A stretch of 19,140 nucleotides of DNA from an uncultured Bacteroidales bacterium (GTDB taxonomy: Bacteria; Bacteroidota; Bacteroidia; Bacteroidales; UBA932). Positions 8,009 to 19,140 of the stretch are shown here, piece by piece; position 1 is the stretch's first letter; each line of letters starts with the position of its first letter. The stretch covers positions 1-19,140 of the forward strand of contig CAKULN010000053.1 in the NCBI GenBank assembly GCA_934667175.1, given 5' to 3'. Position numbers and translations under genes: made by a program. The notes under the pieces were generated by a model. That model ran no database searches, was not told the origin of the DNA, and was given only the letters and a program-made list of their open reading frames with translations.

Positions 8009-8019
8009 TTGTTCCACCG

Positions 8020-8189
8020 CCCGTCGGTCACTGGGTCTGCCCGTCGGTCACTGGGTCTGCCCGTCGGTCACTGAGCCTGCCCATCGGTCACTGGGTCTGC
8101 CCGTCGGTCACTGAGCCTGCCCGTCGGTCACTAGGCCTGCCCATCGATCACTGAGCCTGCCCATCGGTCACTGAGCTTGTCGAAGTGAC
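8020..8189. repeat. 20-bp tandem repeat array (8 units) ending in a full palindromic element
   Basis: Eight consecutive units of 20 bp start at 8020, 8040, 8060, 8080, 8100, 8120, 8140 and 8160, of the type CCCGTCGGTCACTGGGTCTG with a few substitutions. The last unit runs into a complete copy of the dispersed palindromic element (8166-8189). There are no unique spacers, so this is a minisatellite, not a CRISPR. The periodicity is exact. Confidence 0.9.
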
Positions 8190-8242
8190 AGAACGTCACG
8201 GTCAATTTAAAGTGCATGATCACTTCGACAAGCTCAGTGACC
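8166..8242. repeat. Inverted pair of palindromic elements
   Basis: The 23 bases at 8166-8188 are the exact reverse complement of 8220-8242, with a 31-bp spacer. Together they can form a large stem, upstream of the putative enhancer sites of the efflux operon. Confidence 0.85.
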
Positions 8243-8251
8243 GGGAGCAAA

Positions 8252-8270
8252 GTGTAAAGTTTTTTTACAC
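8252..8270. promoter_or_regulatory. Putative activator binding site 1 (enhancer)
   Basis: GTGTAAA-GTTTT-TTTACAC is a perfect palindrome of two 7-bp arms with a 5-bp spacer. Its centre is about 112 bp upstream of the predicted sigma-54 transcription start, a normal distance for an NtrC-type activator site. The binding protein is inferred. Confidence 0.55.
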
Positions 8271-8273
8271 CCA

Positions 8274-8292
8274 GTGTTAAATTTCTTTACAC
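8274..8292. promoter_or_regulatory. Putative activator binding site 2 (enhancer)
   Basis: GTGTTAA-ATTTC-TTTACAC repeats the architecture of site 1 with one mismatch between arms. It starts exactly 22 bp after site 1, about two helical turns, which would place two bound dimers on the same face of the DNA. Its centre is about 90 bp upstream of the predicted start. Confidence 0.55.
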
Positions 8293-8325
8293 TTTCTAAA
8301 ATTGCCATAATTGCTAAAATATTCA

Positions 8326-8338
8326 TAATTAATTGATT
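8326..8338 (-). promoter_or_regulatory. IHF-like site between enhancer and promoter
   Basis: On the - strand it reads AATCAATTAATTA, an exact match to the E. coli IHF consensus WATCAANNNNTTR. It lies between the paired palindromes and the -24/-12 promoter, where IHF-type bending is typical of sigma-54 promoters. The stretch is AT-rich, so a chance match is possible, and the Bacteroidales IHF/HU homologue may have another preference. Confidence 0.35.
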
Positions 8339-8345
8339 GTATTTT

Positions 8346-8363
8346 TTGGCACGCCTAGTGCTT
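8346..8363 (+). promoter_or_regulatory. Sigma-54 (RpoN) -24/-12 promoter
   Basis: TTGGCACGCCTAGTGCTT matches the consensus TGGCACG-N4-TTGCW with one mismatch. GG at 8348-8349 and GC at 8360-8361 are separated by exactly 10 bp, as required. The predicted start is an A at 8373, giving a 20-nt leader to the ATG at 8393. This also argues against the upstream ATG at 8333. The two palindromes and the IHF-like site upstream complete a standard sigma-54 control region. Confidence 0.7.
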
Positions 8364-8392
8364 GTGCTTTTTACCGAAAAGATAAAAAGAAC

Positions 8393-9748
8393 ATGAAAAA
8401 GACAATATTCATAACATTTGCGATGATGGCCGCGGCTCCGGTTTTCGCGCAGGAGTCGCTTCCCAGTCCGATGACACTGAAGGACTGTATGGAGTATGCG
8501 ATCAGCAACAGCACAAAGGTCAGGATCCAGCAGGCGTCCAACGGTGACGCCCGCCTCGCCAGAAGGGACGCGATTTTCGAGGCTTTCACCCCTGAGATCA
8601 GCGGAAGCAGCTATGCCTACTACAACTTCGGACGTGCCGTTGACCCTAAGACCAACACTTACGTCACCACGACATCATTCCATAACAGCTATGGAGTCAG
8701 TGCGGGCATCGCCCTTTTCAACGGATTCAAGGCCGTGAACAACATGAAGATCTCCAAGACATCCATCGCTCTCGGCAACTCCCAAGAGGACCAGATTGAG
8801 GCTGACATCTGCCTCGCCACGATGGAAGCCTATTGCAACGTGCTTTACTACAGCCAGCTTGCGGACATCTACAAGTCTCAGGTTGAGGTAGCGGAGGAGT
8901 CACTTGCCAAGGCCCGCCGCCAGGAGGAACTCGGACAGAAGGGCCACGCTGATGTGGTCGAGATGGATTCCAACCTCGCTGACAAGCAGTACCAACTCGT
9001 TGAGGCCAACAACAAACTCAACGATGCGAAGATCACCCTTGAGGACGTGATGTTCTGGTCGGAGCCAGGCGAGCTTGTCATTGACACGACCCTTCCGACC
9101 ACACTTGACTCAGAGCGGATGCTGACAGATTCTCTGGCGTTGGAAGACATGGTGGACTTCGCGCAGAACAACAATCCGGCTGCCCGTGTCGCAAGGTACA
9201 ACCTATTGAACGCCAAGCGGGAACTTAGCACCGCCAGATGGCAGCTGCTCCCTTCTCTGAATGCCTACGCGGGCTGGTCCACGACCTATTTCACCTATCC
9301 TGGCAGCGGTTCGACATCCGACCCGTTCAAGACCCAGTTCAAGAATAATGGTGGTGAATATGTCCAGCTGTCCCTGAATATTCCTATCTTCTCCGGACTC
9401 CAGCGCCACAGCAACATCGCAAGAAAGAAGAATGCGGTCGCGAAGGCCACAGCCGAGTACGACCAGAAGATGAGGGAGATCTCAGCCGAGGTGCACAGGG
9501 CTGTCCAGGACCGTGACGGAGCGTCCGCTGCCTACATTCAAGCGCAAAGGAAGTCCGATGTGCAGGAGGAAGCATATTCATTGAATATGAAAAAGTTGGA
9601 GCAGGGGCTCATCTCTCCGATCGAGTTCCAGACCGCCTCGAACAACTACCTTGAGGCGAATGCCCAGCGGCTCAATTCGCTCCTGACCTACTTCATCAAG
9701 CGCAGCGTGGTCAACTACTATGGTGGAGTGGATTACATCAATCAATGA
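8393..9748 (+). CDS. TolC family outer membrane efflux protein
   Basis: The 451-residue protein has a signal peptide (MKKTIFITFAMMAAAPVFAQ). After it come two TolC-type repeats of long amphipathic helices, with MTLKDCMEYAISNS near the N-terminus, an internal GVSAGIALFNGFKAVNNM and a later VQLSLNIPIFSGLQRHSNI. The two LFNGF/IFSGL segments are the usual beta-strand-to-helix marks of this family. Length is normal. It would form the trimeric outer-membrane duct for the adaptor and ABC transporter downstream. The start at 8393 follows from the signal peptide and from the promoter overlapping the upstream ATG. It is the first gene of the likely sigma-54-controlled efflux operon. Confidence 0.92.
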   Translation: MKKTIFITFAMMAAAPVFAQESLPSPMTLKDCMEYAISNSTKVRIQQASNGDARLARRDAIFEAFTPEISGSSYAYYNFGRAVDPKTNTYVTTTSFHNSYGVSAGIALFNGFKAVNNMKISKTSIALGNSQEDQIEADICLATMEAYCNVLYYSQLADIYKSQVEVAEESLAKARRQEELGQKGHADVVEMDSNLADKQYQLVEANNKLNDAKITLEDVMFWSEPGELVIDTTLPTTLDSERMLTDSLALEDMVDFAQNNNPAARVARYNLLNAKRELSTARWQLLPSLNAYAGWSTTYFTYPGSGSTSDPFKTQFKNNGGEYVQLSLNIPIFSGLQRHSNIARKKNAVAKATAEYDQKMREISAEVHRAVQDRDGASAAYIQAQRKSDVQEEAYSLNMKKLEQGLISPIEFQTASNNYLEANAQRLNSLLTYFIKRSVVNYYGGVDYINQ

Positions 9749-9944
9749 ATATGATTGTGTCGGTCGCTGGTCACTGAATATGTCTAATGATAGTTGCTTC
9801 GGCAGGCTCAGCAACCATATGACATGCTAATGGTACAGGACCTGCGGTCCCTGAACTTGTGGTCCCTGAGCTTGTCGAAGGGCCGAAGGGCCGCAAATGG
9901 ATAGAAAATAATAAACAAGTTACAAAAAGATAACAACAAACATT
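9749..9944. repeat. Repeat-rich junction after the TolC-like gene
   Basis: It holds a palindromic element with arms GTTGCT/AGCAAC (9793-9815) and a compound copy of the GGTCCCT type with an AAGGGCC tail (9846-9893). A short fragment beginning GGTCACTGA lies at about 9769. The last 45 bp before the adaptor start are A-rich, typical of a Bacteroidetes leader. No strong promoter is visible. Confidence 0.8.
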
Positions 9945-11201
9945 ATGGACAAGATAATCGAGAAAAAGAAAGGCTGGAGATCAGCCTTCACAAAAAAGGC
10001 GATGCCTTACTGGCTTGGAGCCATCGTGGTAGTCTTCGTGCTCTACCTTGTGTTCAGAGACAATTCCAAGACCCTCAGGGTTGATAAGGACACGATCACG
10101 GTCAGCGAAGTCGCTGACGGACAGTTCAACGACTATATTCGTGTAAGCGGTCAGGTTCAGCCGATGGTCACGATTCAGATCAGCCCGCTTGAGGGCGGTA
10201 CTGTCCAGAAGATCATCGTCGAGGAAGGATCCACCGTGAAGGCAGGCGAGCCGATACTTGTGCTCTCTAACGACAATCTTGATCTTCAGATACTTAACGC
10301 TGAGGCTGAGCTTGCAGAGAAGGAAAACATCCTGCGTAACACGATGATCTCGATGGAGCAGCAGAAACTCTCCCATGAGCAGAACAGGCTCCGCTACGCC
10401 TCCGAGGCCAAGCGCAACAAGAGAACCTTCGAGCAGAACCAGCAGCTCTACAAGGAGAAACTCATTTCCAAGGAGGATTTCCTCAAGGCTCAGGAGGACT
10501 ACGAGCTCTCGCAGCAGAACCTTGACCTTACCCTCAAGAGCATGGAGCAGGACAGTCTCTATCGTTCTACCCAGCTTCTGAGTCTCCGCGAAAGTCTGGA
10601 CAACATGAAGATGAACATGCAGCTGATCCGTCGTCGTAAGGAGAGCCTGACAATCAAGGCTCCGATCGATGGAGTCCTCGGACTCCTGGACGCCAACCTT
10701 GGTCAGTACATCGGTGCCGGCACAAAGATCGGCCAGATCAACTCCGAAGGCAGCTACAAGATTGAGGCTAAGATAGATGAGCACTACATCGACCGCGTTG
10801 TTCCGGGGCTTGACGCCACATTCGAGCGTCAGAGCGAGAAGTATGACGCTCAGGTGCGTAAGGTCTATCCTGAGGTCCGTGACGGCAAGTTCCAGGCGGA
10901 CTTCAAGTTCGAGGGCCAGCAGCCGGACAACATCAGGACCGGCCAGACATATTACCTGAACCTTCAGCTCGGTCAGCCGGAGCAGGCTGTCCTTATTCCT
11001 CGCGGAACATTCTACCAGAAGACGGGTGGCAAATGGATCTATGTTGTCACCAAGGATGGCGGCAAGGCTGTCAAGCGCGAGATCCGCATCGGTCGCCAGA
11101 ACCCTCAGTTCTACGAGGTCCTTGAAGGCCTGGAGCCGGGTGAGAAGGTCATCACCTCTTCCTACGACAACTACGGTGACAGCGATGTGCTTGTCTTCTG
11201 A
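9945..11201 (+). CDS. HlyD/MacA-type periplasmic adaptor (membrane fusion protein)
   Basis: The 418-residue protein has a short cytoplasmic N-terminus, one membrane helix at about residues 20-38 (YWLGAIVVVFVLYLVF) and a large periplasmic part. A split biotinyl-lipoyl domain is visible: the first half around 75-105 (GGTVQKIIVEEGSTVKAG), the second near 230-260 (IKAPIDGVLGLLDANLGQYI). Between them lies a long coiled-coil hairpin (about 110-225) rich in Glu, Lys, Gln and Leu. Beta-barrel and membrane-proximal parts follow (RTGQTYYLNLQLGQ, VLIPRGTFYQKTGGKWIYVV, LEGLEPGEKVITS). It would bridge the TolC-like duct and the FtsX-type permeases. The A-rich leader lacks a clear Shine-Dalgarno sequence. 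Confidence 0.92.
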   Translation: MDKIIEKKKGWRSAFTKKAMPYWLGAIVVVFVLYLVFRDNSKTLRVDKDTITVSEVADGQFNDYIRVSGQVQPMVTIQISPLEGGTVQKIIVEEGSTVKAGEPILVLSNDNLDLQILNAEAELAEKENILRNTMISMEQQKLSHEQNRLRYASEAKRNKRTFEQNQQLYKEKLISKEDFLKAQEDYELSQQNLDLTLKSMEQDSLYRSTQLLSLRESLDNMKMNMQLIRRRKESLTIKAPIDGVLGLLDANLGQYIGAGTKIGQINSEGSYKIEAKIDEHYIDRVVPGLDATFERQSEKYDAQVRKVYPEVRDGKFQADFKFEGQQPDNIRTGQTYYLNLQLGQPEQAVLIPRGTFYQKTGGKWIYVVTKDGGKAVKREIRIGRQNPQFYEVLEGLEPGEKVITSSYDNYGDSDVLVF

Positions 11202-11418: not shown

Positions 11419-12099
11419 ATGATTAAAGTTACAAATCTCTCCAAGGTCTTCAGAACCGAAGAAATCGAGACAACAGCCCTCAATGGGGTTTCATTCGAAA
11501 TCGCTGACGGTGAATTCGTCGCCATCATGGGCCCTTCAGGTTGCGGCAAGTCAACTCTGCTGAACATCCTCGGCCTTCTTGACAACCCTACCGGAGGCTC
11601 CTACGAACTTCTCGGAACTGAAGTCAGCCAGCTCAAGGAAAAGGAGCGCACAAAGTTCCGCAAAGGCAACATTGGGTTCGTGTTCCAGAGCTTCAACCTT
11701 ATCGATGAGCTGAATGTCTACGAGAACATCGAGCTTCCTTTGAGGTACCTGAACATCTCGGCGGCCGAGCGCAAGCAGAAAGTCACCGAGATCATGAAGA
11801 GAATGGCCATCAGCCACAGAGCACAGCACTTCCCTCAGCAGCTTTCCGGAGGTCAGCAGCAGAGAGTCGCCATCGCCCGTGCCGTGGTCGCTGGTCCGAA
11901 GCTGATCCTCGCTGATGAGCCTACTGGTAACCTGGACTCCAAGAACGGTAAGGAGGTGATGGATCTCCTCAGCGAGCTCAACAAGGAGGGCACGACAATC
12001 GTAATGGTGACCCACTCCCAGAGAGACGCAGCCATCGCCCAGCGCACAATCGACCTCTTCGATGGCCAGATTGTCTCTGACGTGAAGAACGAACTCTAG
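11419..12099 (+). CDS. ABC transporter ATP-binding protein (MacB/LolD type)
   Basis: The 226-residue ATPase is complete. It has Walker A GPSGCGKST at residues 38-46, a Q-loop in FVFQSFNLI, signature LSGGQQQRVAIARA starting at 142, Walker B LILADEPTGNLD at 162-173 and the switch His199 in MVTHS. The LDNPTGGSYELLG and GFVFQSFNLIDELNVYENIELPL segments are typical of the MacB/LolD/FtsE group, which powers FtsX-type permeases that push substrates or conformational change across the envelope rather than transporting through the membrane helices. It is the only ATPase in the locus and would serve both permeases. Confidence 0.95.
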   Translation: MIKVTNLSKVFRTEEIETTALNGVSFEIADGEFVAIMGPSGCGKSTLLNILGLLDNPTGGSYELLGTEVSQLKEKERTKFRKGNIGFVFQSFNLIDELNVYENIELPLRYLNISAAERKQKVTEIMKRMAISHRAQHFPQQLSGGQQQRVAIARAVVAGPKLILADEPTGNLDSKNGKEVMDLLSELNKEGTTIVMVTHSQRDAAIAQRTIDLFDGQIVSDVKNEL

Positions 12100-12574: not shown

Positions 12575-14914
12575 ATGAACAGTTTTATTAACTTCTTGAA
12601 GCGCAACAAGCTTTACAGCGCTGTCAACCTTCTGGGGCTCAGCCTCTCGATGGCGTTTGTCCTGCTTCTGGCTGTGTATGTCACCAGCCAGCTCGGCATC
12701 GACTCGTTCAACAAGAACGCAGACAGAATCTATGTCGTCGCACAGAAAGAGACCCTGTCGAGCGGCTACTGGCTGTCTCGCCATATGAAGGCGAACTTCC
12801 CGGAGGTCGAGAGGTCGGCGTCATATTCCAGCAATGGATTGCAGGAGTACAAGATAGACGGCAACATCGTGAATGCCAGAACGTCCTATGCCGACTCTTC
12901 GTTCTTCGATATGTTCAGTTTCCCTCTCGTGGAGGGCGATTTCCGTGAGTGGAAGGCCTCGATAAGCGGAGTCTTGATCAGCGAGTCTTTCGCCAAGGCT
13001 CAGTTCGCTGACAAGGATCCGGTTGGACGTGAGATACGGTACGATGGAGCTGACTCGACAGTGAGCATCCTGACAGTCTCCGGTGTGTTCAAGGACATCG
13101 AGAACTCCATCATCAAGCCGTGCGACATATTCCTTCGCGGTGAGATCATGACGATCACCAATCAGGCGAACGATGAGCGTATGTCCAATTCCGGTGCGGC
13201 GACATGCTTTGTGATGACCTATCCGAGCGCAGATCTTCCAGCAAGGCACGATGATATTCTTAAATGGTGCCGGGAGAATTGGTGGGTATATTCATCGGAC
13301 TATGGCGGAGACGAGAATGACGTGAGGATCATTCCTTTGCGGGATGTCTATTTCCTGTCAGACGGCAATGAGGACTACAATGACAGTTTGGTTCTTGGCA
13401 ACAAGACGACCGTGATGCTGCTTGCCGGAATGTGCTTCCTGCTGCTTCTGTTCGCCATCCTGAACTATGTGAACATGACCACGGCTCTCTCCGGCTTCCG
13501 CGCCAAGGAGATGGCCACCAGAAGGCTTATCGGTGCCACGAAAGGTGGCATATTCCTGAAAATGATTGTTGAGAGCACCATCATCTGCGCGGCCGCTATG
13601 GTCGTCGCCATCCTGCTTGGCGAGGCCATTTCCCCAGCGGCTTCGAAGGTGCTGAACTATGACATCTCGATTTTCAAGGCTGTCTCTCCGGTGAGTGTGA
13701 TTGTCTGTGTCCTGTTCACGGTTCTGGTCGGTGTCATCGCTGGTATCGTGCCTGCGCTCATCATCCAGAAGGCCGAGCCAATCGAGATTATCCGAGGCAC
13801 GCTCAGGCTCAAGACCAAGACCCTTTACAGCAAGGTCATCATTGTCATCCAGAATGTCATCACTGTGGTGATGCTTGTGACAGCGTTCACGATGTTCCTC
13901 CAGATTCGCTCTATGATCAACGCTCCGGTGGGTTACAATACTGAGGATCAGATCACCATCAGCAATCAGTTCGGGCGTGCCAGCGAGTTGACGCCACTCA
14001 TCAACAAGCTTAAGGCTGAGAGTTGCGTTGAGGCCGTGGGACTTGGAAATGGGCATCCGATGTTCATGACCAACAACTGGACGATGTCCACCGAAAGCGG
14101 AAGAGAGGCCTCGTTCCAGATGGTCCAGGGCGACAGCACCTATTTCAATATTCTTGGAATCAGGAAGAAACAAGACAATCACACTCCGGACTGCTATTGG
14201 TTGAATGAATATGCCTACGGAGTTCTCGGCATCGACGAGTCTGCCACGGAGTTCAATACCAAATTCAATGGCACGATGCAGATTGGTGGAATCTACCACG
14301 ACTTTAAAATCAAGCCTTTGCTGGAGGAGCAGCATCCTGCGTTGATCTATCAGTATGACGAATATCCTGCCAAGAGGTGGCCGTGGACGATTCTTATCAA
14401 GACCACACCGGATCACAAGGAGGCGTTGGCGAGAGTGAAGGCTGTCTTTGATGAGATGTACCCGGACAAGATATTCGATGCCAGTTATGTGGAGGATGAC
14501 ATCAAGATGGTGTTCGCCTCCGATAGGAGGGTGCTGGAGATCATGGTCATATTCACAATCCTTTCAGTGCTGGTTTCGGCTCTCGGTCTTGTGGCGATGA
14601 GTTCGTACTACATGCAGCAGGAACGCAGGACTGTCTCGCTGAAGAAGGTCTATGGTGCTGATTACAACTCTGTTCTGTGGGGTTTGGTGGCTGAGTTCAT
14701 GAAGATGATAGGTGTGGCGTTCATCATCGCTGTGCCTGTGGCTTGGTACCTGATGCACACATGGCTGAACGGCTATTCGTACAGCATCAGCCTACATTGG
14801 TGGATCTTCGCCATTGCCGGCCTCTTCACCGCCCTCATCGCTGTTCTGGCCGTCCTCTGGCAGGCCATCCGCGCGGCCCGCACCAACCCGGCTCTCGAAC
14901 TGAAAAAGGAATAG
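12575..14914 (+). CDS. FtsX/MacB-type ABC transporter permease, first of two
   Basis: The 779-residue protein opens FINFLKRNKLYSAVNLLGLS. A first membrane helix spans about residues 17-37, then a periplasmic MacB-type domain to about 270. Three helices make the first FtsX domain (about 275-300, 325-350, 370-395), including NMTTALSGFRAKEMATRRLIGATKG. A second set follows: a helix near 425-445, a second periplasmic part and three C-terminal helices from about 650, with ERRTVSLKKVYGAD. It thus has the duplicated, eight-helix layout of Bacteroidetes FtsX-like efflux permeases. There is no ATPase domain; the ATPase is encoded just upstream. Long repeat-filled gaps separate it from both neighbours. 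Confidence 0.9.
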   Translation: MNSFINFLKRNKLYSAVNLLGLSLSMAFVLLLAVYVTSQLGIDSFNKNADRIYVVAQKETLSSGYWLSRHMKANFPEVERSASYSSNGLQEYKIDGNIVNARTSYADSSFFDMFSFPLVEGDFREWKASISGVLISESFAKAQFADKDPVGREIRYDGADSTVSILTVSGVFKDIENSIIKPCDIFLRGEIMTITNQANDERMSNSGAATCFVMTYPSADLPARHDDILKWCRENWWVYSSDYGGDENDVRIIPLRDVYFLSDGNEDYNDSLVLGNKTTVMLLAGMCFLLLLFAILNYVNMTTALSGFRAKEMATRRLIGATKGGIFLKMIVESTIICAAAMVVAILLGEAISPAASKVLNYDISIFKAVSPVSVIVCVLFTVLVGVIAGIVPALIIQKAEPIEIIRGTLRLKTKTLYSKVIIVIQNVITVVMLVTAFTMFLQIRSMINAPVGYNTEDQITISNQFGRASELTPLINKLKAESCVEAVGLGNGHPMFMTNNWTMSTESGREASFQMVQGDSTYFNILGIRKKQDNHTPDCYWLNEYAYGVLGIDESATEFNTKFNGTMQIGGIYHDFKIKPLLEEQHPALIYQYDEYPAKRWPWTILIKTTPDHKEALARVKAVFDEMYPDKIFDASYVEDDIKMVFASDRRVLEIMVIFTILSVLVSALGLVAMSSYYMQQERRTVSLKKVYGADYNSVLWGLVAEFMKMIGVAFIIAVPVAWYLMHTWLNGYSYSISLHWWIFAIAGLFTALIAVLAVLWQAIRAARTNPALELKKE

Positions 14915-15167
14915 CACTTCGGTCACTGAGCTTGTCGAAGTGACAGTATATGGACTTGAAATCTGTTACGGTTTTGTCTTTATCATCCGGAAGGTTGCCA
15001 CAGCGAACCTTGGCCACCCGCGGCCATAAGTGGGAGGGTGGTTCGGCCCTTCGGCAGGCTCAGGGACCGTAAGCCGATATACAATGTTTCGGTCACTGAG
15101 CTTGTCGAAGTGACCTGCGGTAATAAAAATATCAAGAAATAATTAACCTCTATTGGGAGGGGAAAAT
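14915..15167. repeat. Repeat-rich junction between the two permease genes
   Basis: A palindromic element (GGTCACT/AGTGAC) starts at 14921, six bases after the stop. A left-end copy of the MITE-like family lies at 14984-15038 and passes directly into a GGCCCTTCGGCAGGCTCAGG-type copy (15045-15068). Another full GGTCACT/AGTGACC copy lies at 15091-15115. GGGAGGGG at 15155-15162 is an unusually strong Shine-Dalgarno sequence, 5 bp before the next ATG. Confidence 0.85.
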
Positions 15168-17531
15168 ATGAGAAGAGTAAGTGATTTGATAATCAAGGTT
15201 CTGTCCTTGGGAGTGGGGATGGCGATCGCCATCATCCTGATCGCGAAAGTGTGCTTTGAATTGTCGTATGACAATGCTTATCAAGATGTTGAGAGGATCT
15301 ACAAGATACGTACAGGCATAGCGAGACAAGGCGATGACAAGGATTTCGGACAGGTCAGCGGAGCGGTGGCTCCGGGATTCAAGGCCGAGGTTCCTGGCGT
15401 GCTTGAGGCTACAAGGTACTCGAGTGTGTTCAACACCGAGACTTTTATCATTGACGAAGAGGAAAACAAGGTCGAAGCTGGGCACATCATCACCGACTCC
15501 TGCTTCTTCAAGATATTCGACAGGCCATTCCTTGCGGGAGATCCGGAGGACGCGTTGAAGGCCTGGGATTTCAAGGTCGCTGTCTCGAAGTCATTCGCCG
15601 AGAAACTGGGCGGAGTCAACGAGGCAATCGGCAAACAGATCGCAAACGACCAGATGCCGAAGTTGAAACTGACTGTCTGCGGAGTCTATGAAGACTTTCC
15701 GAAGAACGGCTCCATTCATCCGGATGTCATCCTGTCCATTGAGACGATGAGCGCCTGGAGCCTTAACAACTGGCTCGGCAACGACCGCTACATCGGATTT
15801 GTGAAACTGGCGGAAGGTGTTGACCCTGCGTCCCTTAAGGATGCCATTCATGAGATGCAGAAAGCGCATCAGCCATTGGATGAGCTGGAAAAGAACGGCA
15901 CCACGATGTGGTACTTCCTGGCTCCTTTCGCCAAGGAGCACAGCTCTCAGCCAGAGGTCAGGAATCTGGTCTTCATCCTCTCGATTGTCGCCATTCTGCT
16001 TCTGCTCGTCTCCATCATGAACTACGTCCTTGTGGCCATCTCGGATGTCATCCGCAGGGCACGTGAGGTCGGAGTCCGCAAATGCTACGGAGCCGAAGCA
16101 TGGGACATCAACAAGATTCTCCTCAAGGAAACAGCCGGCAATCTGGGACTTTCTCTTGTCGTGGCCGCGTTGCTTGTCCTTGCGTTCAGAGGCGCGGTGG
16201 AATCCCTGCTTGGAGTCCCTGTGCAGGACCTTATCACTCCGCTCTCCATCTGGATCATCATCGGAATCGTCATCCTTGTGTTCCTTGTCTCCGCCATCAT
16301 CCCGGCCCAGATGTTCAACAGGATTCCTATCTCCAGCGCCTTCAGGGGCTACAAGGAGAGCAAGCGTCGCTGGAAAATCTCCCTGCTGGCATTCCAGTTC
16401 GCCATCAATGCCGTACTCGTGTCTCTCGTGCTGATCGTAAGCTTCCAGTACCGCAAGGTTCTGAACACCGATCCGGGCTACGAGTACAAGAACCTGGTCT
16501 ATGAGACATTCTCCTCTTATGACCAGACCAAGATGAACGCCATCGCCGGGGCCGTCCGTATGCTTCCAGAGGTAGAAGCCGCGGAACTGACATACACATT
16601 GCCTTTCTACAGGGCTTCCGGCAACAACGTAAGCCTGCCGGGAGACGATCGCGAACTTTTCAACATCGCTGATGAATATGGCGCCTCGGAAGGTTTCTTT
16701 GACATGATGGGTTTCCGTCTTGTCGAGGGATCCGTTCCTAAAGGTCCGAACGATGTGGCTGTCAGCAAGTCGTTTGTGACCAAGATGGCCGCCTTCGCGG
16801 ACTGGTCTGACGGTGCCGTGGGCAAGATCGTCAACATTTCCGAGCACGATCAGGTCACCATCTGCGGAGTCTACGAGGATTATGTCATCGGAGATGTCAC
16901 CGACATGGACGAACGTCCGAGCGTCCGCTTCTGCTGGAATAGTGACTTCTACACTGAGGAATATAAGGAGAAGGGTGGATATGATTGGGCCGGCTTGATG
17001 CATACCATTGTCATCAAGCTGAACGAAGTCACCCCTGAGACGATTCGCAAGGTCGAGAGGGCCATTAAGGAGGTGGCTCCTGACAGCGATGCCGAGGTGA
17101 AGGCATATTCAGAGACACTTACGAGCATGTACGACTCCACTAAGCAGATGAAACGTACCTATGAGCTCGGTTCTTTGTTCGCCCTTCTGATCGCCATCAT
17201 CGGCCTAATCTCCTACGTCCGTGACGAGAACTACCGCCGCAGCGCTGAGATAGCTGTCCGCAAGGTCAACGGAGCCCAGTCCTCGGAGATCGTGTCGATG
17301 CTTGTGATGGATGTCTTGAAGATGGCTGTCATCGCAGTGATCATCGGTGACGCAGGCGCATGGCTCGTGGCCCATTACTGGCTACAGCAGTTTCCGGTCA
17401 AGATTGCCCTGAGCCCTCTGTTCTTCATCGCAGCCGACATCATTGTTCTCGCCATCATCGTGGCCACAATCGCCATCGGTTCCCTGAGAATCGCCCGCAT
17501 GAATCCTGTCGATTCCCTCAAGAACGAGTAG
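15168..17531 (+). CDS. FtsX/MacB-type ABC transporter permease, second of two
   Basis: The 787-residue protein starts at ATG 15168 rather than the upstream TTG at 15153, because GGGAGGGG sits 5 bp before this ATG. A first helix spans about residues 8-30 (VLSLGVGMAIAIILIAKVCF), with a periplasmic MacB-type domain to about 265. Then come the first FtsX helices (LVFILSIVAILLLLVSIMNY; VIRRAREVGVRKCYGAEAWD), a mid helix near 410-430, a second periplasmic part, and the final helices with YRRSAEIAVRKVNGAQSS. It has the same architecture as the permease before it but clearly different sequence, so the pair may form a heterodimer. The N-terminus lacks part of the charged segment that usually precedes the first helix. 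Confidence 0.9.
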   Translation: MRRVSDLIIKVLSLGVGMAIAIILIAKVCFELSYDNAYQDVERIYKIRTGIARQGDDKDFGQVSGAVAPGFKAEVPGVLEATRYSSVFNTETFIIDEEENKVEAGHIITDSCFFKIFDRPFLAGDPEDALKAWDFKVAVSKSFAEKLGGVNEAIGKQIANDQMPKLKLTVCGVYEDFPKNGSIHPDVILSIETMSAWSLNNWLGNDRYIGFVKLAEGVDPASLKDAIHEMQKAHQPLDELEKNGTTMWYFLAPFAKEHSSQPEVRNLVFILSIVAILLLLVSIMNYVLVAISDVIRRAREVGVRKCYGAEAWDINKILLKETAGNLGLSLVVAALLVLAFRGAVESLLGVPVQDLITPLSIWIIIGIVILVFLVSAIIPAQMFNRIPISSAFRGYKESKRRWKISLLAFQFAINAVLVSLVLIVSFQYRKVLNTDPGYEYKNLVYETFSSYDQTKMNAIAGAVRMLPEVEAAELTYTLPFYRASGNNVSLPGDDRELFNIADEYGASEGFFDMMGFRLVEGSVPKGPNDVAVSKSFVTKMAAFADWSDGAVGKIVNISEHDQVTICGVYEDYVIGDVTDMDERPSVRFCWNSDFYTEEYKEKGGYDWAGLMHTIVIKLNEVTPETIRKVERAIKEVAPDSDAEVKAYSETLTSMYDSTKQMKRTYELGSLFALLIAIIGLISYVRDENYRRSAEIAVRKVNGAQSSEIVSMLVMDVLKMAVIAVIIGDAGAWLVAHYWLQQFPVKIALSPLFFIAADIIVLAIIVATIAIGSLRIARMNPVDSLKNE

Positions 17532-17689
17532 CGCTGCCGTATCTTCCCGGTCGTTGAGCCTGTAGCCCGGCCCTTCGACGAGCTCAGGGACCCCAAACTC
17601 ACCAACCGTGGTTCGGCAGGCTCACCAACCATGGTTCGGCAGGAGTTGATGTCGTGACAGTTAACTATTTGTTAAACAGTAAAATGAAC

Positions 17690-18069: not shown

Positions 18070-19140
18070 CTACTTGAATATGAGCGTGAAGACAGTCGCT
18101 TCGGAATCCGAGCGGGTTAGACGGAGGGTGCCGCCGTGCATCCTCATGATCTGGCGGGAGAGACTGAGGCCGATGCCGCTGCCGTCTGGCTTTGTGGTGA
18201 AGAAAGGAATGAAGATCTCCTCCTGGCTTGCCGCGCTGATCGGTGGTCCGTCATTGCTGACATTGATGATGACGTTGTCCCTCTTGTCAATCTCTGCGGA
18301 GATCTCGATGTGCTTCGCTCCGGCCTGGGCGGCGTTCTTGACCAGATTGATGAGAATCTGAGAGATCTGGCTCTCGTCAGCGTACAACAGTACATCCTCG
18401 GTTTTCTCCACGAATTTCGCCACGGCTCCGGCGGCTGTCAGCACCGGCTGGCTGAGGTCGATGACCTTGGCGGCGAGATCCCGCGCGAAGAAAGCCTTTC
18501 TGACCGGCACGGCCACGTGGGTCAGATCCCTGTACGAATTGACGAACTTTATCAGGCCGCGGGACGAGCTGGCGATTGTCTCCAGACCTGCCTTGAGGTC
18601 TGGGCCATCGGAGGGCGGAGTGATTGTCCCGGCATATTCGGAAAGAGCCTCGGAAAGGGACGCGATCGGGGTGACGGTGTTCATGATCTCGTGGGTAAGG
18701 ACCCTGATGAGCCTGGTCCAGGATTCCGACTCGTTCTCCTCTATGGTCTCCGAGATGTCGTTCACGGCGATGATTTTCACGTCTTTACGCCCGATGTGGG
18801 CGGAAGTGGCGGAAAGAGAGATGTTTGTCTGCGAACTTTCTGAATATATCGACGCTTTCTGGTCTAGTCCTTCCTCCACTTTTTCGAATGCGCTTCTTAA
18901 CGAAGGGCCTACGATGTCAAGCTGGCGAAGCGTGCTTAAAGAAGACACGCCCAACAGAAGCAGAGCCTGCTTGTTGGTGTAAAGCACGGAATCCGTTCCG
19001 GACTCCAGCACGAGAATCCCGGTCTTGGCCTTGTCGAGCATCTGCCCGTAATATTCCTCCTGCTCCCGGATATCCGCGGTCTCTTTCTGGAATATGGTCC
19101 GGATTCGGTTTAGGGTCCGGTTTATCTTCCGGCTGCCCAA
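18070..19140 (-). CDS. Sensor histidine kinase, NtrB/NtrY type (N-terminus outside window)
   Basis: The reading frame is open to the right edge, so the N-terminal part (probably membrane helices and HAMP) is missing; 356 residues are visible. After a helical linker there is a PAS-like domain (about residues 30-115), then the phosphoacceptor segment VLTHEIMNTVTPIASLSEAL, with the histidine codon at 18691-18693. The ATPase domain follows: N-box QILINLVKNAAQA, G1 VSNDGPPI, an F-box (FIPFFTTKPDGSG) and G2 GIGLSLSRQIMRMHGG. The HExxNxxTPI form is typical of NtrB/NtrY kinases that partner sigma-54 activators. It converges on the efflux operon, whose promoter looks sigma-54 dependent, so it likely senses an envelope signal and controls that operon. 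Confidence 0.9.
   Translation of the reverse strand: MGSRKINRTLNRIRTIFQKETADIREQEEYYGQMLDKAKTGILVLESGTDSVLYTNKQALLLLGVSSLSTLRQLDIVGPSLRSAFEKVEEGLDQKASIYSESSQTNISLSATSAHIGRKDVKIIAVNDISETIEENESESWTRLIRVLTHEIMNTVTPIASLSEALSEYAGTITPPSDGPDLKAGLETIASSSRGLIKFVNSYRDLTHVAVPVRKAFFARDLAAKVIDLSQPVLTAAGAVAKFVEKTEDVLLYADESQISQILINLVKNAAQAGAKHIEISAEIDKRDNVIINVSNDGPPISAASQEEIFIPFFTTKPDGSGIGLSLSRQIMRMHGGTLRLTRSDSEATVFTLIFK

Follow-up and report, generated by a model that had tools for sequence, protein, structure and literature searches.

Predicted sigma-54 control region of a MacAB/FtsX-type efflux operon in Bacteroidales and its candidate NtrC-type activator

The analyzed window, a stretch of 19,140 nt from a contig of an uncultured Bacteroidales bacterium in whose coordinates all element positions are given, contains at 8252-8363 what is very probably the sigma-54 control region of the following tripartite MacAB/FtsX-type efflux operon, with an NtrC-type regulator as the activator. 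Orthologous loci keep the elements of this region in fixed order and spacing (Table 1). Paired enhancer sites combined with an IHF bend constitute the textbook architecture of NtrC-type sigma-54 promoters. The order of enhancer, bend site, -24/-12 promoter and gene is the same here, and the regulator coded in a related locus (L066) has the receiver, AAA+ and Fis-type HTH parts of an NtrC-type protein, whereas the activator loop is GAFTDA and not GAFTGA, the half-site is TGTAAAG and the target is a MacAB/FtsX pump.

Table 1. Elements of the predicted control region and genes of the efflux locus in the window
Feature	Position	Strand	Remarks
Distal enhancer palindrome	8252-8270		GTGTAAAGTTTTTTTACAC; GTGTAAA-N5-TTTACAC; half-site TGTAAAG/CTTTACA
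Proximal enhancer palindrome	8274-8292		GTGTTAAATTTCTTTACAC; GTGTTAA-N5-TTTACAC; 71 nt before promoter start
IHF consensus, exact	8326-8338	-	AATCAATTAATTA; sequence match
IHF/HU-type bend site (predicted), conserved register	8327-8339	+	AATTAATTGATTG; one mismatch to WATCARNNNNTTR
Sigma-54 -24/-12 promoter (predicted)	8346-8363	+	TTGGCACGCCTAGTGCTT; GG-N10-GC, GG 8348-8349, GC 8360-8361
20-nt leader (predicted)	8373-8392	+	start at 8373 if C at 8361 is position -12; ATG of the TolC-type gene at 8393
TolC-type outer membrane efflux protein	8393-9748	+	Pfam OEP; 94% relative P0001
HlyD/MacA-type periplasmic adaptor	9945-11201	+	Pfam, NCBIfam
MacB/LolD-type ABC ATPase	11419-12099	+	Pfam, NCBIfam
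FtsX/MacB-type permease 1 (ADOP-like)	12575-14914	+	Pfam, NCBIfam
FtsX/MacB-type permease 2 (ADOP-like)	15153-17531	+	Pfam, NCBIfam
Histidine kinase, convergent, cut by window end	18070-19140 (Pfam entry 18070-19137)	-	Pfam

The initial annotation had placed four elements upstream of the operon and every position it gave was borne out. The two 19-bp palindromes, described there as exactly 22 bp apart, are indeed separated by 22 nt from start to start, but the proximal one carries a single mismatch between its arms. With up to two mismatches allowed, the palindrome pattern occurred twice in the window, both times in 8252-8292, against 0.01 occurrences expected. The distal palindrome lies 93 nt before the start of the promoter, with 95 nt from the beginning of its TGTAA to the GG, and the distance of the proximal one falls in the range most common among relatives (70-72 nt). 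The IHF consensus, for which the window has six matches where 0.91 would be expected, is weak evidence on its own. The -24/-12 pattern gave a single match when up to two mismatches were allowed (1.68 expected per window), and this match was exact. Neither the promoter nor the IHF element would convince by itself; what is convincing is their combination together with its conservation.

Conservation was evaluated in 80 Bacteroidales loci fetched via alignment of TolC (the best 80 of 312, with TolC 56-62% identical to that of the window). The window and these relatives formed a set of 81, for which 300 nt upstream of the match starts were compared with 50 dinucleotide shuffles of each region. The -24/-12 pattern TGGCA-N7-TG[CTA] was present in 77 regions (1.68 in shuffles) and the palindrome TGTAA-N5..14-TTACA in 69 (0.58 in shuffles). 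In 66 regions a palindrome was located 50-100 nt 5' of the promoter, and 77 had at least three half-sites 5' of it; neither arrangement arose in shuffles (0.00 for both). In 40 regions a palindrome, an IHF word (either strand) and the promoter followed one another in this order (0.00 in shuffles). The spacing was constrained as well: of 45 pairs of plus-strand IHF consensus and promoter, 44 had their starts 19 nt apart with the IHF consensus first, and the distance from palindrome to promoter fell at 70-72 nt for 54 pairs and at 92-93 nt for another 10. The 81 regions are mutually related and these counts do not represent independent events, but the TolC of the relatives shares only about 60% identity with that of the window, and the alignment shows variable bases between the elements. 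The four regions without the promoter pattern (L001, L008, L011 and L012) stayed in the set of 81 and were dropped from the anchored set. Alignment A2 comprised 68 of the remaining 77 regions, with L021, L038, L047, L050, L059, L061, L074, L078 and L079 excluded by hand.

The alignment of orthologous upstream regions had been named beforehand as a test able to refute the proposed control region; promoter and palindromes were found conserved and the claim was not refuted. Some of its details had to be modified. The palindrome as such is a conserved form (66 of 81), yet two strictly paired dyads about 22 bp apart were seen only in the window and 7 of the 80 relatives, most other relatives having a single palindrome with half-sites of one orientation ahead of it. 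The GG-N10-GC promoter is exact in the window, but GC at -12 is shared by only 39 of the 77 regions with the pattern, whose matches end in TGC in 39 cases, TGT in 33 and TGA in five (GT or GA in 38). As for the IHF site, the minus-strand match proposed initially is exact, but the conserved register is the one on the plus strand, which overlaps it with an offset of one base: WATCARNNNNTTR occurred on the plus strand in 48 regions (1.60 in shuffles), an exact match being absent from the other 33, and on the minus strand in seven (1.30 in shuffles).

The efflux locus itself consists of five pump genes, assumed to be carried on a single transcript, with intergenic gaps of 196-475 nt; repeats are present in the one gap read as sequence. 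The best NCBIfam model was DarC for the adaptor, DarD for the ATPase and ADOP for both permeases, with DarB next, and in this the locus resembles the darobactin export system DarB/C/D and MacAB. It differs in having two permease genes and in that the matches lie below the curated cut-offs of the Dar models; the general RND adaptor model was the sole one among the listed NCBIfam matches to exceed its cut-off. The convergent kinase gene at the window end lacks the part encoding the N-terminus, being cut ahead of the membrane part, and its product has a longer linker, PAS-like by eye, to which Pfam gave no name. It is homologous to the kinases coded beside the regulator in relatives, and its partner regulator gene is expected to lie outside the window.

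The likely activator, as judged from gene neighborhoods and domains, is an NtrC-type response regulator with a GAFTDA loop. Its gene (ELFGH...G[AS][FY]TDA) was identified in 61 of the 80 related loci, with the loop GAFTDA in 59, GSFTDA in one, GAYTDA in one and GAFTGA in none. In 42 loci the regulator gene was directly upstream, followed by a kinase gene whose end is less than 500 nt from TolC; another 13 loci had it further upstream on the same strand and six on the opposite strand. No regulator was found in the remaining 19 loci, of which four had only the kinase and 15 neither gene; six of these 15 have less than 2.7 kb of upstream DNA and nine have more. Pfam assigned a receiver, a Sigma54_activat domain and a Fis-type HTH to the L066 regulator. 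RpoN was coded in all 32 relatives' genomes tested and HU/IHF-family genes in all 16, and RpoN and the regulator are presumably coded in the window's own genome as well. The initial proposal that RpoN and an NtrC-type activator would use this region thus gains support from the conservation in orthologues, from RpoN in 32 of 32 genomes and from the regulator in 61 of 80 loci.

Strong sigma-54 activators numbered two to four per genome (a total of 46 below E 1e-60 across 16 genomes), and the loop in the 30 activator loci read was GAFTDA in 14, GAFTSA or GSFTSA in 14 and GAFTGA in two. GAFTDA and GAYTDA are among the variants expected to stay active in the part of PMC4641369 covered here. In one of the 16 genomes (G014, with locus L077), no GAFTDA regulator was present among its two strong activators; its TolC gene is nevertheless preceded by a palindrome and a weaker promoter. 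This genome may be a case against strict coupling of regulator and region, or its record may be incomplete.

The same half-site recurs at the regulator genes themselves. Within about 230 nt upstream of 59 of them (L001 and L036 were dropped), the palindrome TGTAA-N3..8-TTACA was detected in 22 cases (0.10 in shuffles), and 11 of these also had GG-N10-G[CT] downstream of the palindrome (0.00 in shuffles). In nine of the 11 the palindrome starts 95 nt before the GG, the same distance as for the distal palindrome of the window, and two of them (L056 and L080) have two palindromes. Upstream of 12 of the 59 genes, TA-N2..3-TTTG runs into TGTAAAG (0.00 in shuffles), so the site would sit on a housekeeping promoter, suggesting repression. 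None of these features was found upstream of 34 of the 59 genes. The palindromes suggest autoregulation of the regulator gene in some relatives.

The link between kinase, regulator and pump was also approached from the side of the kinase, relatives of which were found at E 1e-30 in 152 of the 295 genomes of the order. FtsX-type genes were present in all eight stretches in which regulator and kinase were annotated. In 20 further kinase loci from other genomes, most of them taken from high in the match list, the regulator adjoined the kinase in every case and at least one efflux gene was present in 18 (FtsX 15, HlyD 14, ABC 13 and TolC 13); the two loci without an efflux gene lie near contig ends. 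A single membrane helix was predicted for 61 of the 63 short kinases of relatives, and among 16 other kinases printed, eight have two helices 3-8 residues apart. A further difference from the textbook NtrC-type systems is that the kinases of relatives show no large periplasmic part.

Several of the distant upstream regions carried TTGGCA...TTTGC with paired TGTC/GACA dyads, that is TGTC and not TGTA, and others were unclear. All 61 in-group regulators, associated with TGTA half-sites, have the recognition helix SRPT. Among 23 distant loci, the helix [ST]RQT was found in 12, eight of them with mostly TGTC and four with mostly TGTA half-sites, and SRPT with TGTA in two, the rest having no usable helix or another one. 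The half-site letter appears roughly to follow the recognition helix, which is suggestive only, as helix and half-site disagree in 4 of the 12 distant cases and kinship was uncorrected.

Based on these data the following mechanism can be proposed. The phosphorylated NtrC-type regulator (receiver, AAA+ with the GAFTDA loop and Fis-type HTH), made from the gene pair with the kinase whose end occupies 18070-19140, would bind upstream at a distance of 70-95 nt, on the TGTAAAG half-sites. The DNA would be bent at about 8327-8339 by a protein of the IHF/HU type, and the bend would let the regulator touch the RpoN-RNA polymerase at 8346-8363, whereupon the promoter would open. Through the same half-site the regulator may also control its own gene in some relatives. 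Binding, bending, phosphorylation, transcription and pump function are all deduced here from architecture and conservation.

An improbable alternative is that the sigma-54 promoter is true but is activated by another enhancer-binding protein, the palindromes binding a repressor or a different regulator. The two to four strong activators per genome (46 below E 1e-60 in the 16 genomes) would leave room for such a protein, and in line with it G014 retains the region without a GAFTDA regulator and nine loci have neither regulator nor kinase although their upstream DNA exceeds 2.7 kb. However, the operon-linked regulator has both receiver and Fis-type HTH domains, the same palindrome precedes 22 of 59 of the regulator's own genes, half-site letter and recognition helix tend to co-vary, and the half-sites are situated at enhancer distance, off the promoter itself.

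Transcription of the operon from a housekeeping (sigma-A type) promoter, with the -24/-12 match as a relic or a coincidence, is very unlikely. In favor of this reading are the AT-richness of the stretch, the frequency with which -24/-12 matches arise by chance when up to two mismatches are allowed, and the occurrence of the motif TAnnTTTG, taken from the part of PMC9723704 covered here, within 100 nt of TolC in 12 of the 81 regions. The last figure compares with 7.4 in shuffles, so the word is little enriched in relatives, and the 100 nt preceding TolC in the window do not contain it, whereas TGGCA-N7-TG[CTA] in 77 of 81 regions (1.7 in shuffles) and the fixed spacings of 19 nt and 70-72 nt speak for the sigma-54 promoter. 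That the palindromes are mere AT-rich hairpins, a terminator or repeat-derived sequence, as the 20-bp tandem array and inverted repeat just upstream might suggest, is scarcely credible, since the array unit is G+C-rich with letters unlike the TGTAAAG half-site and the half-sites persist in relatives that differ in upstream sequence.

The specificity and spread of the predicted sigma-54 control region were examined with R1, a sequence-only model built from the 68 aligned regions with the window in the training set. R1 gave one strong match in the window, at 8247-8364, and a profile made without it, from the remaining 67 rows of the same alignment, recovered the window site at E 1.5e-10. In 24 relatives' genomes, chosen as suppliers of loci so that the presence of matches was expected, the number of R1 matches per genome ranged from 1 to 12 at E up to 0.1, and the 30 R1 loci returned from them were all at efflux genes (28 TolC, one permease and one ABC ATPase). 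Of the 16 loci from a plain palindrome search, five were inspected; two had a permease, one of them with the promoter pattern, and the remaining three had neither an efflux gene nor a promoter. Across the order, R1 matched 14 of 295 genomes at E 1e-5, a figure that is probably too low as a measure of the spread, since the half-sites of other lineages are TGTC and the filters were stricter.

In more distant genomes, similar regions also precede non-efflux genes. In G279 and G200 they were observed before an outer-membrane-like ORF, a small secreted ORF and a metallo-hydrolase-like ORF, as classified by eye. Two of the G279 loci, L172 and L171, have such -24/-12 regions accompanied by half-sites; the genes downstream are a small secreted ORF in which E[DN]WM motifs recur and an outer-membrane-like ORF of 787 residues. 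The genome of locus L009 (G019) had 12 R1 matches, five of which reach at least 70 bits and lie on five contigs; either the pump module is multiplied in it or the bin is mixed.

The initial annotation regarded RpoN-controlled efflux in Bacteroidales as little described. No paper defining this enhancer motif, its activator or the link of regulator and pump was found in the open-licence literature, judged by title and the start of the abstract, but a sigma-54 link had already been predicted in a 2025 survey (PMC12316311), the part of which covered here reports COG0577 FtsX-type permeases as enriched for sigma-54 promoters in Bacteroidia. The survey and the present locus have in common the class of ABC permease, the prediction of a -24/-12 promoter ahead of it and the bacterial class; its result is a statistical enrichment, and in the part covered, enhancer motif and activator for these permeases are not given. 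Its activator filter, as described there, retained only exact GAFTGA and would thus drop the GAFTDA family of regulators, which suggests that activator surveys requiring exact GAFTGA would miss this family. Mapped -24/-12 sigma-54 promoters (SM4) are likewise available in Bacteroidota from Flavobacterium psychrophilum (PMC9723704), for which the selection in Table 2A comprises chaperones, envelope proteins and gliding genes, with no pump operon and no enhancer motif in the part covered.

The guess made from one sequence is thereby turned into a defined cis code of TGTAAAG half-sites, bend site, -24/-12 promoter and fixed distances, to which a candidate activator can be assigned; for this phylum, literature searches found no defined sigma-54 enhancer. 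It offers a testable regulon for the pump operons of gut Bacteroidales. In the Bce-type modules of Firmicutes, a kinase with a short extracytoplasmic part is coded near an FtsX/MacB-type ABC transporter. The kinase of the relatives, apparently also with a short extracytoplasmic part, is likewise coded near such a transporter, whereas the output regulator is NtrC-type with sigma-54 and not OmpR-type. A broader and rather doubtful possibility is that the loci represent an order-wide, self-regulating detoxification module of Bacteroidales, whose kinase, lacking a periplasmic sensor, might read the state of its partner FtsX/MacB transporter and whose GAFTDA NtrC regulator might switch the pump on from the sigma-54 promoter; if true, the module would be the sigma-54 counterpart of the Bce systems.

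Several repeats were noticed in and around these loci. In the window, a 20-bp tandem array of 7.8 copies (8019-8173) and a 24-bp perfect inverted repeat (8165-8243) both end just before the control region. Repeat words of the CTGAGC type appear again at 9846-9875 and near 17600, and a similar repeat at 1158-1195 is located within a long ORF on the minus strand (287-2446), as if inserted in frame into the coding sequence. Repeat-like peptides (SERSEES, SERSEGS and PGQARN) were also seen just before the HTH in the regulators of L123 and L125 and at the start of the kinase ORFs of L056, L064 and L071, suggesting interspersed repeats in or beside the regulator and kinase genes.
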